A stretch of DNA of 64,000 bases from Myxococcales bacterium (GTDB lineage Bacteria; Myxococcota_A; Polyangia; Polyangiales; Polyangiaceae). Below the pieces are notes generated by a model. That model ran no database searches, was not told the DNA's origin, and was given only the letters and a program-made list of their open reading frames with translations. Where the stretch lies: assembly GCA_947473045.1 (NCBI GenBank), contig CANJCO010000001.1, forward strand, positions 1 to 64,000, given 5' to 3'. Below are positions 22,037-25,488 of the stretch, in pieces. Position 1 is the first letter of the stretch. Every line of letters begins with the position of its first letter. The translations under genes were made by a program, and so were the position numbers.

Positions 22037-22423
22037 ATGGCTGCGAAGAAAGCTGCTGCGAAAAAGACCACGAAACCGGCCAAGAAGGCTGCTGCCCCCA
22101 AGGCCGCTGCCAAGGCTGTGAAGCCGGCAAAGCCGGCGAAGCCGGCGAAGAAGGCCGCTGCCCCCAAGGCCGCTGCCAAAAAGGCTGCTGCCCCCAAGGC
22201 CGCGAAGAAGCCTGCCGCCAAAAAGGCTGCCAAAAAGGCCGCCAAAAAGGCTGCCAAGAAGCCTGCTGCCAAGAAGGCGGCCGCAAAGGCTGGCCCTGGG
22301 AAAACCGCCGGGAAGCGTCCTGCCGGCGGAAAATCGGCTGGAAAGTCTGCTCCCCCGGCCCTCCCGTCCATGATGGGTGGCCCGCCTGCGTCCAAGCACA
22401 GCGCGGACGACGGCGAGGAATAG
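22037..22423 (+). CDS. Histone H1-like Lys/Ala/Pro-rich DNA-binding protein
   Basis: 128 residues from ATG 22037 with GGAGGG upstream. Built from degenerate repeats of KKAAAPKAAAK, KPAKPAK and KKAAKKA type, ending in an acidic tail (SADDGEE). It resembles eukaryotic H1 tails and bacterial Hc1/AlgP-like proteins, which compact DNA through charge. Repeats make the DNA slippage-prone, so length may vary between strains. It has a strong predicted promoter with palindromic operators and a strong terminator, consistent with an abundant product. Confidence 0.9.
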   Translation: MAAKKAAAKKTTKPAKKAAAPKAAAKAVKPAKPAKPAKKAAAPKAAAKKAAAPKAAKKPAAKKAAKKAAKKAAKKPAAKKAAAKAGPGKTAGKRPAGGKSAGKSAPPALPSMMGGPPASKHSADDGEE

Positions 22424-22543: not shown

Positions 22544-23374
22544 TCAGCGGCGGCGACGGGCCAGCTCAGGCTTGGCCGCGAGCAGTGAGTCCAAACGCCC
22601 CACCCGCGCGCCGAGCATCCTGGCCATCACGGCCGTCACGCTCGCGCCGGTGCGTTGCGCGAAGAGCGTGATGTCGAGCGCGACCTGACTGGTCACGACT
22701 TCGGCGATCGCCGCGGTGCCGCTGATGACGGCGTGGTCGCCTTCCCGTTTTTCTGTGGCGGCCACAAGCGTCTCTTCGTCGTCGCGAACGATGATGAGGC
22801 GGTGACGCCAAAACGCCTCGAGGTCTTTTTCGGCGAGTCCGTACGAGTGCACTTCACCGGGCGCCTTCACCAGCGCGCAGTGTGAAAAGATCACGATGTA
22901 AACGCCGCGCTTCTGGGCCCGACGCAGCTCGGGCATCAACGCGTCGATCTCGCGCGCCCAGCCGCTGACGACTACGCGAGCGCTTGCCGCACGGACGATG
23001 CGCTCGGCCTCTTCGAGCGCGCGATCGTAGCCCCGCACCGTGAAGGCGAGCGGCGCTGGCGCCGGCGCTCCGAGCGCGCGCACGGCGTCGGCGAGCTGGT
23101 CGGCAGACGCGTCGAAGCGCTTGCGCAGCACCGCCAGGACCTCGTCTGCCGGCGATGGCGCGAAGCGTTCGGGCGCGCCTGGGATCGACCGAACGGCGCC
23201 CGCGCGCTCGAGGCGCCGAAGCACGCCGTAGACTGCCGAGCGTGGAATTTGCGCGCGCACGCCGATCTCGTAACCGGTGGCAGGACTGTCCTGCAGCAGC
23301 GCGGCGTAAGCGCGCGACTCGTTGAGGCTGAAGCCGAGCTCCCCGAGTGCCGAGACCAGATCAGCAGCCGTCAT
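22544..23374 (-). CDS. TrmB-family transcriptional regulator
   Basis: 276 residues from ATG 23374; the longer upstream frame was rejected because it runs through the intergenic operator-like region. The N-terminal winged helix matches TrmB (ELGFSLNESRAYAALL, YEIGVRAQIPRSAVYGVLRRLERAGAV). The C half is the phospholipase-D-like effector domain (ARVVVSGWAREIDALMPELRRAQKRGVYIVIFSH). It may sense a small ligand. It is divergent from the bufferin-like cluster with 200 bases between, and a 16-base palindrome lies 31 bases upstream of its start. Confidence 0.85.
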   Translation of the reverse strand: MTAADLVSALGELGFSLNESRAYAALLQDSPATGYEIGVRAQIPRSAVYGVLRRLERAGAVRSIPGAPERFAPSPADEVLAVLRKRFDASADQLADAVRALGAPAPAPLAFTVRGYDRALEEAERIVRAASARVVVSGWAREIDALMPELRRAQKRGVYIVIFSHCALVKAPGEVHSYGLAEKDLEAFWRHRLIIVRDDEETLVAATEKREGDHAVISGTAAIAEVVTSQVALDITLFAQRTGASVTAVMARMLGARVGRLDSLLAAKPELARRRR

Positions 23375-23404: not shown

Positions 23405-23420
23405 AAAACGCGAGCGTTTT
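23405..23420. promoter_or_regulatory. Perfect 16-bp palindrome between the TrmB gene and the bufferin-like cluster
   Basis: AAAACGC-GA-GCGTTTT, two 7-base arms, 31 bases from the TrmB start. A likely operator for a dimeric winged-helix protein. It could serve TrmB autoregulation and control of the divergent cluster. Confidence 0.55.
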
Positions 23421-23574
23421 CGGGTGATTTGCAGAGGATGTGCATTTTTGTTGTACGCGCCACCCCACACCTCGATACGCTTCGTTGCGTTGTGCGGCGC
23501 CCCCAAAGGCGTCTCACGAGCGCAGGCCGGCGGCTGCAGGCTGCGAATTATCGACAAACGTAGGAGAGACAGAC

Positions 23575-23787
23575 ATGAAGATCGCTAAGACGCTCGCCGC
23601 TACCGCGGCTTCCGGAATGCTCATGGGTTTGCTGGCCGCTTGCGGCGGCGAAGCCCCCCCCGCAGCGGCCCCCGCCGCCGCGCCCTCGGCTGATCCGGCT
23701 GCCGCCAGCAGCGCCGGCAAGGCGAGCTGCAACGGCAAGAGCTCCTGCAGCGGCGCCGCTGCGCCCGCCGCGCCCGCCAAGAACTGA
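23575..23787 (+). CDS. Putative bufferin-type metallophore precursor (Cys-containing lipoprotein)
   Basis: 70 residues from ATG 23575 with AGGAG nine bases upstream. A signal peptide ends at lipobox LLAAC (Cys23), then an Ala/Pro/Ser linker, then the short motif SCNGKSSCSG with Cys52 and Cys58, and an Ala/Pro tail. Next come a DUF692 (MNIO) gene and a DUF2063 gene. In bufferin systems the MNIO enzyme with its DUF2063 partner rewrites Cys of a signal-peptide-bearing precursor into copper-chelating heterocycles (thiooxazole or related). The NGK/GK-Cys context fits BufA-like precursors. A lipid anchor on the precursor is unusual; if real, the product would be membrane-bound rather than diffusible. 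Confidence 0.72.
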   Translation: MKIAKTLAATAASGMLMGLLAACGGEAPPAAAPAAAPSADPAAASSAGKASCNGKSSCSGAAAPAAPAKN

Positions 23788-23866
23788 ACGACAGCTCGTG
23801 CGTTGGGCGTCGGATCGCGGATAGCGGTTCGGCGCCCGATGCTTTTTGTGCGATGCTCACTTCAGG

Positions 23867-24712
23867 GTGGGTTTTCGCGATCGACATCAAGTTCCCGATC
23901 TCGGCATCGGCGTTGGCTTCCGCCCGAAGCACGCGGCCGATATTCTGCAGGGTAACGGCTGGTCGCAGGTCGACTGGTTCGAGGTCATCAGCGAAAACTT
24001 CATGGTCGGCGGCGGCGTCCCGATCGAAAATCTGGAGCGCTTGCGGGCCGTGCGCCCAGTCGTGCCGCATGGAGTGTCGCTCTCGATCGGAGCGGTCGAG
24101 GCGCTCGACGAAGACTACCTCGTGCGCCTTGGCGCGCTGACAAAGCGCCTCGCGCCACCGTGGTTCAGCGATCATGCCTGCTTCTGTCGCGCAGCGGGTC
24201 GTGACCTCCACGATTTGCTGCCCCTGCCGCACACGCGCGAGGCGATCGCGCTGGTCGTCGAGCGCATCAAGCGGGTGCAGGGCGAGATCGGGCGCCCGCT
24301 CGCGCTCGAAAATGTCTCGTCGTACCTCACGTACGAAACCAGCGAGATGCCGGAGTGGGAGTTTATCTCCGAGATCGCCGAGCGCGCCGACTGCGGCCTG
24401 CTCCTCGACGTGAACAACATTTATGTCAGCGCGCGCAACCACGGCTTCGACGCGAGCCGCTACGTCGATGCGATCCCGGCCGATCGCGTGCTGCAGATTC
24501 ACCTCGCAGGTCACACCGACAACGGCACCTACCTCCTCGACACCCACTCCGATCACGTCTCCGATCCCGTTTGGGAGCTGTACGCGCGGGCGATCAAACG
24601 CACCGGGCCGGTCTCGACGCTGATCGAATGGGACGAATCGATTCCGACGTGGGAGGTCCTCGTCAGCGAAACGGAGCGCGCGCGGCGCGAGCGCGGCGGG
24701 GCCCTGCCGTGA
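23867..24712 (+). CDS. DUF692 multinuclear non-haem iron oxidase (MNIO, BufB/MbnB-like)
   Basis: 281 residues from GTG 23867 (TTG 23846 is an alternative). A TIM barrel with all MNIO hallmarks: DLGIGVGFRP, HGVSLSIG (His68), SDHACF (His103), LALENVSSYL (Glu148), LLDVNNIYVSARNHGFD (Asp181, His192), LQIHLAGH (His212), DTHSDHV (Asp225, His227) and TLIEWDESIP (Glu254). These residues match the iron ligands known from MbnB-type enzymes, which oxidise peptide Cys to copper-chelating groups. It follows the small Cys lipoprotein gene by 79 bases and overlaps the DUF2063 partner gene (GTGA), the canonical order. Confidence 0.93.
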   Translation: MGFRDRHQVPDLGIGVGFRPKHAADILQGNGWSQVDWFEVISENFMVGGGVPIENLERLRAVRPVVPHGVSLSIGAVEALDEDYLVRLGALTKRLAPPWFSDHACFCRAAGRDLHDLLPLPHTREAIALVVERIKRVQGEIGRPLALENVSSYLTYETSEMPEWEFISEIAERADCGLLLDVNNIYVSARNHGFDASRYVDAIPADRVLQIHLAGHTDNGTYLLDTHSDHVSDPVWELYARAIKRTGPVSTLIEWDESIPTWEVLVSETERARRERGGALP

Positions 24713-25488
24713 AGCTCGCCGAGCTCCAGAAAACGCTGGCGCTTTCGCTGCTGCAGCGCGAGCCGAACCCCGTAGCCGCGACCCTCGCGTCGGGCAGCGC
24801 GCGGCTGTCGCCGCTCGAGCAGGTCGAAATCTACAGGGAGCAGTTCTGGCTGCGCCACATCGCGTGCCTGACCGAGGACTTCCCCACGGTGCGCGCGCTC
24901 ACCGGCGACGCGGCGTTCGACGCGCTTTGCCGGAGCTACCTCGAGGCGTTTCCTCCAGCGCACTTCATGCTGCGCGAGCTGGGGCGCAACTTCGCCGAGT
25001 TCCTCGCGCGCGCGCAGGGCGATGCGCTGCTCGCCGAGGTCGCGCGCGTCGAGTGGGCCTTCATCGACGCGTTCGACGCAGCCGAGGCGCCCGCGCTCGA
25101 TCCCGCGGCGATCGCAGCGGCGACCGACGACGACTGGCCGCTTTCGCGCATTCGCCTCCATCCGTCGATTACGCTGCTCGATTTGTCGTGGCCGGCCGAT
25201 GCGCTGCGAGAGGAACACGCGCGCGGAGAGCCTGTTTCCAGGCCCGAGCGTTCCCCGCGGCGGCTCGTCGTGCACAGGCGCGCGCGGCAGCTCTACGCCG
25301 AGCACGAGCCCGAGTCGGCGTTCGCGGTGCTCGTCGCCCTCGCCGCAGGAGCAACGCTCGAGGCGGCGTGCGCGCACGCGAGCGACGCCGAAGACAAGAT
25401 TGGCGAGTGGTTTTCGCGGTGGGCAGCCCTCGGCTACGTCGCCGCGGTTACCTTCCCGGAGCGCGAGCTCACAGCGGCTTCGCGCTGA
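24709..25488 (+). CDS. DUF2063 MNIO partner protein (BufC/HvfC-like)
   Basis: 259 residues from GTG 24709, which overlaps the MNIO stop. The N-terminal DUF2063 domain is clear: LAELQKTLALSLL, SPLEQVEIYREQFWLRHIACLTEDFPTVRALTGDAAFDALCRSYLEAFPP, then FMLRELGRNFAEFL. The C half (about 160-255) is the second domain seen in HvfC/BufC. In methanobactin and bufferin systems this partner recruits the leader of the precursor to the MNIO enzyme. The coupled overlap strongly supports complex formation. Confidence 0.9.
   Translation: MKLAELQKTLALSLLQREPNPVAATLASGSARLSPLEQVEIYREQFWLRHIACLTEDFPTVRALTGDAAFDALCRSYLEAFPPAHFMLRELGRNFAEFLARAQGDALLAEVARVEWAFIDAFDAAEAPALDPAAIAAATDDDWPLSRIRLHPSITLLDLSWPADALREEHARGEPVSRPERSPRRLVVHRRARQLYAEHEPESAFAVLVALAAGATLEAACAHASDAEDKIGEWFSRWAALGYVAAVTFPERELTAASR

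Follow-up and report, generated by a model that had tools for sequence, protein, structure and literature searches.

Bufferins sequester copper in the periplasm through Cys-derived thiooxazoles (PMC12452194). The products of MNIO enzymes paired with a type 1 PME partner (MNIO-PME1) carry a 5-thiooxazole and generally bind copper, and the Cys-Lys MNIOs have an Asp at a specificity site beside the catalytic Asp (PMC13097082). Lipoprotein signals are predicted in about 16% of Buf2 bufferins (PMC12452194), and a lipidated MNIO product of the EGKCG type, NedA, has been made in E. coli, where the lipobox-bearing peptide was both triacylated and modified (PMC12636315). Here we describe a locus on a 64,000-nucleotide stretch of DNA (the window) from a soil myxobacterium with a genome of 5.15 Mb, probably a member of the Polyangiaceae, whose closest named relatives are Myxococcales and Labilithrix MAGs. 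Its genes follow the order precursor, MNIO, partner, which is that of Buf2 clusters and is kept in relatives:

23575..23787, + strand: precursor lipoprotein, bufA-like, 70 aa (translation; lipobox conserved family-wide upstream of the MNIO gene; dN/dS)
23728..23754, + strand: core unit CNGKSSCSG with the candidate modification sites Cys52 (23728-23730) and Cys58 (23746-23748) (motif scan; spacing in relatives)
23800..23847, + strand: terminator-like hairpin of 19 pairs followed by a T-run (TTTTTG), between the precursor and MNIO genes (fold z-score -4.3)
23867..24712, + strand: MNIO/DUF692 maturase, bufB-like, 281 aa from a GTG start (NCBIfam, Pfam, ligand motifs; start by homology)
24709..25488, + strand: DUF2063-RRE partner (PME type 1, bufC-like), 259 aa (Pfam, AlphaFold2, Foldseek)

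By analogy with the characterised systems, we consider it probable that these genes form a minimal lipidated bufferin-type RiPP operon, in which Cys52 and Cys58 would become 5-thiooxazoles and bind copper within the cell envelope.

The enzyme is a BufB-type MNIO. It scores 350 bits with Pfam PF05114 and 348 bits with the NCBIfam model MNIO_BufB (NF050167; cut-off 310), and its histidine and acidic motifs (HGVSLS, SDH, EN, DVNN, HLAGH, DTH and EWD) line up with those of 3BWW, TglH and MbnB. The original prediction had drawn a link to methanobactin, which is not supported: the MbnB model (TIGR04159) scored the window MNIO at 56 bits, well under its cut-off of 325. The HvfB model likewise stayed below its cut-off (253 bits against 360), as did the ApyH and ChrH models. 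The first in-frame start is a TTG at 23846; the true start is most likely the GTG at 23867, since homologues begin M/V-[SG][FY]R..H..PDLG at the equivalent residue. Compared with its copy in a genome of the same genus (L004), the MNIO gene is clearly under purifying selection (dN/dS ~0.22; 0.24/1.07, NG86).

The partner gene begins with a GTG at 24709 and overlaps the MNIO stop (24712) by 4 bases. Its product matches Pfam DUF2063 (PF09836) at 67 bits against a cut-off of 27, has the length of a PME type 1 partner (~250-260 aa), and yielded an AlphaFold2 model with a mean pLDDT of 93.5. When this model was searched with Foldseek, the top matches were 3DEE, 8HCI_A and 8HI7_A, and only 3DEE and the partner of TglHI (TglI) fell below E = 0.001; these two matches argue that both a DUF2063 half and an RRE-like half are present. 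With the BufB cut-off passed, the DUF2063 family matched and the partner fold fitting 3DEE and TglI, the predicted bufferin-type MNIO and DUF2063 RiPP cluster is upheld. The three-gene order recurs within the genus (L004) and through the family, and thus is not a chance arrangement.

At the window locus we saw no DoxX or metal gene directly adjoining the cluster and no Lactamase_B_2 gene. Nothing there specifically indicates copper, and the product could instead act on a different metal (such as zinc or gold) or under oxidative or sulfur stress; some bufferin clusters include mercury genes, and roles other than copper handling have been proposed (PMC12452194). We nevertheless regard this as unlikely, given how generally the characterised MNIO-PME1 products bind copper (PMC13097082).

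The same genome carries a second MNIO system on contig 32 (L215:2807-5262). There, a 151-aa lipobox precursor with five core Cys (motifs CSANGC, SCGA and CGAGTC) lies upstream of an MNIO that reaches neither the BufB nor the HvfB cut-off; downstream, a DUF2063-like gene on the opposite strand converges with the MNIO gene and overlaps its end.

The precursor gene of the window is preceded by a Shine-Dalgarno-like AGGAGAG and translates (23575-23787) as MKIAKTLAATAASGMLMGLLAACGGEAPPAAAPAAAPSADPAAASSAGKASCNGKSSCSGAAAPAAPAKN, with Cys at positions 23, 52 and 58. By pattern, it has a Sec-type signal, as bufferins do, with the lipobox LAAC at Cys23 (codon 23641-23643). The profile search that the original prediction had proposed for all three proteins succeeded for the MNIO (PF05114, BufB) and the partner (DUF2063), while the precursor matched no family in Pfam or NCBIfam. 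In the same-genus copy L004, KTLAATAASG and SAGKASCNGKSSC are identical in protein although their codons differ synonymously, and the precursor dN/dS is ~0.38 (0.29/0.76, NG86; the alignment is short and partly gapped).

For a wider comparison, we gathered MNIO orthologues from named genomes and from 108 genomes within the family, and read the DNA upstream of each for precursor ORFs. In 67 of 74 distinct family MNIO loci, the upstream DNA has a Cys-containing ORF that begins like a signal peptide, so that homologues of the small gene are indeed conserved beside MNIO genes, the point on which the original prediction had staked itself. This conservation, the protein identity with L004 despite synonymous changes, and the dN/dS value together indicate that the small gene codes for a genuine protein that is under selection and linked to the MNIO. 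Among the 62 family precursors that could be classified by core, 61 have a lipobox, usually with GG after it; these counts refer to the myxobacterial family only, because the scan misfires within the cores of non-myxobacterial precursors. The lipobox had been thought odd for this class. It is instead the rule among these relatives, and lipidated bufferins have already been published. Lipidation of the window precursor is accordingly predicted from a conserved signal peptidase II (SPII) lipobox of the kind seen on DAG-RiPP precursors.

The core itself bears a clear resemblance to Buf2. The motif C.GK..C.G occurs only once in the six frames of the 64-kb window, and CNGKSSCSG aligns with the Buf2 unit CKGKNECKG such that the C-x5-C spacing, the internal GK and the G two residues past the second Cys are all kept. 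Both post-Cys lysines are replaced, by N and S, so the core has CN and CS where Buf2 and the Cys-Lys captophorins have Cys-Lys. It contains two Cys, as compared with the six (or twelve) conserved in Buf2 cores. Of the two features that had been singled out as unusual, the low Cys number holds, whereas the C-x5-C spacing is ordinary for Buf2, as in CKGKNEC. A home-made HMM of the Buf2 core gave the precursor 8.9 bits, a score exceeded by at least 8 of 1,997 shuffles, and membership of Buf2 by precursor sequence alone is therefore weak. Since the precursor lacks the six Cys, it should be called a reduced Buf2 variant rather than a textbook member, one that would act as Buf2 bufferins do and whose orthologous position traces it to them.

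Most relatives have cores of the CKGKNECKG (Cys-Lys) type with 6-8 Cys, such as DCCKGKNECKGKSGCKTETNASCAGSNECKGKGTSCPKG, and in nearby orthologues the corresponding position holds canonical CKGKNECKGKSGCK cores. The number of core Cys is 1-4 in 16 reduced members versus 6-8 in 46 canonical members; in the reduced members, 46 of 49 core Cys are followed by S, G or N, while K dominates in the canonical ones. On the MNIO tree a single clade of reduced members is rejected (AU p = 4e-7), and reduced cores thus arose more than once. A fall to 1-4 core Cys in several lineages, together with the complete loss of the cluster in neighbours, might also be read as decay, in which the lineage is giving up the metal site and retains the gene chiefly for its small lipoprotein. 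We find this very unlikely, because the core unit is protein-identical within the genus despite synonymous changes, the enzyme and partner are intact, and selection on the enzyme is clearly purifying.

The enzyme also departs from the canonical pattern. The window MNIO has Glu, not Asp, after the proposed catalytic Asp (LIEWDES), at the position of FonB-Phe250. With Glu at the specificity site and a substrate without post-Cys Lys, its chemistry may differ from that of Cys-Lys MNIOs, and the MNIO could turn the precursor into something other than a 5-thiooxazole, through another Cys oxidation or modification of one Cys only. In addition to the S, G or N found after nearly all Cys of reduced cores, the catalytic Asp is followed by Glu at 10 of 15 reduced loci versus 3 of 46 canonical loci, and chemistry is diverse across the MNIO family (PMC12636315). 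However, the enzyme still scores above the BufB equivalog cut-off, Asp to Glu is a conservative change, and the L004 MNIO combines Asp with the same core as the window. We therefore give this alternative a low probability, and 5-thiooxazoles remain our preferred reading. The association between Glu and reduced cores has a Fisher p of 1e-5 when phylogeny is ignored, but it amounts to only ~2-4 independent pairs and is no longer significant when phylogeny is taken into account; a co-change of the residue with core reduction was set aside as a finding. It is possible, though we hold it only tentatively, that several myxobacterial lineages separately pared a 6-8-Cys Buf2 bufferin down to a lipid-anchored core of 1-4 Cys that has no lysines, alongside an adjusted MNIO pocket (Asp to Glu), to give a minimal surface-anchored metal site with altered substrate rules.

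The hairpin between the precursor and MNIO genes recurs in the family. Similar hairpins with unrelated stem sequences are found at 16 of 54 family loci (~30%), versus a mean of 1.1 and a maximum of 3 in shuffles. In the simplest reading, the hairpin is likely an attenuator that would give more precursor than enzyme. We found no sigma-70-type promoter for the window cluster. A promoter-like block, GATACCTTTGTA[GC]CCT, lies 5' of the precursor at four related loci (L006, L008, L043 and L044), and in the window the GATACCTTTGTA block is present only in diverged form, CGATACGCT, at 23470-23484. A palindrome, AAAACGCGAGCGTTTT, at 23405 was dropped, as it is not conserved in relatives.

Upstream of the cluster lies a divergent neighbour:

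22544..23374, - strand: TrmB-family regulator (Pfam TrmB)

Its orthologue is present in 37 of the 108 family genomes, adjoining the MNIO gene in 11 and lying elsewhere, or occurring without the cluster, in 26. It often stands in a conserved neighbourhood of TrmB, Ser/Thr kinase and GGCP-lipoprotein genes, and the TrmB-kinase order occurs without the cluster in several genomes. A role for TrmB as a dedicated regulator was rejected as unproven, on the 26 of 37 orthologues that do not lie beside an MNIO gene and on the TrmB-kinase order without the cluster. The TrmB gene probably marks a site at which the cluster is inserted and lost and is not part of the system. At that chromosomal site one relative has an MNIO fragment (L206:900-1100) and no intact cluster, and another (L197) has an apparent precursor remnant 5' of its TrmB gene, again with no intact cluster there. 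These remnants point to recurrent loss of the cluster; some relatives have lost the system, which is thus dispensable. Also in this part of the window, at ~22040-22423 (+ strand), is a Lys/Ala/Pro-rich histone H1-like protein with AAKKAAAPKAAAK repeats.

Computed here are the layout of the three genes, the families to which enzyme and partner belong, the conservation of the lipobox and core unit, and the repeated shrinkage of the core in several lineages, where 6-8 Cys that are mostly followed by Lys give way to 1-4 Cys that are not. In the mechanism we propose, the precursor would be made in excess, as the terminator-like hairpin sits before the enzyme gene. The DUF2063-RRE partner would hold the precursor while the MNIO oxidises Cys52 and Cys58 before export, most likely to 5-thiooxazoles as in characterised relatives. 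The Sec pathway and signal peptidase II would then export the peptide, lipidate it and cut it at Cys23, and its lipobox suggests anchoring in the cell envelope, probably at the outer membrane. There, the two thiooxazole thiols would bind and buffer copper. By analogy, the lipid-anchored product would carry one or two thiooxazoles and act as a copper buffer of the envelope.

Among described systems, the Buf2 (Buf_6/12Cys) bufferins and Cys-Lys captophorins (PMC12452194, PMC13097082) share with the window the precursor-MNIO-DUF2063 order, the Sec signal, the C-x5-C unit with GK inside, the BufB-type MNIO and the PME type 1 partner; the window differs in having two core Cys, not six or twelve, no Cys-Lys, Glu in place of Asp after the catalytic Asp, and no DoxX. 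DAG-RiPPs (DybA and NedA; PMC12636315) share the precursor lipobox, and in both cases MNIO modification is expected before Lgt/LspA processing; however, DybA contains a CPACGMG macrocycle and NedA an EGKCG oxazolin, whereas the window has a Buf2-like unit. The CxxxxC signal-peptide precursors (PMC12452194; cluster X of PMC12636315) are also small, secreted or lipidated two-Cys precursors beside MNIO and DUF2063 genes; in contrast to them, the window spacing is C-x5-C, relatives trace the core to Buf2, and the locus shows no Lactamase_B_2 gene. Methanobactin (MbnABC) has in common the MNIO enzyme family and copper-binding Cys-derived heterocycles, the latter predicted in the window, but the window MNIO lies far below the MbnB cut-off, its partner is a DUF2063-RRE protein, and methanobactin precursors are without a Sec signal. 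The oxazolin or EGKCG captophorins (HvfA/B) do not fit, with HvfB below cut-off, no EGKCG and Pro as the second residue of the R-R pair (FRPKH). Bufferins are known as copper peptides with many Cys, and the locus would extend them to a near-minimal form that is lipid-anchored and has one C-x5-C unit. The family forms a natural series, running from eight core Cys to one on a single orthologous enzyme, and opens to direct test both the substrate rules of the MNIO (what the post-Cys Lys and the Asp/Glu of the pocket contribute) and the question of how small a useful copper site can be.
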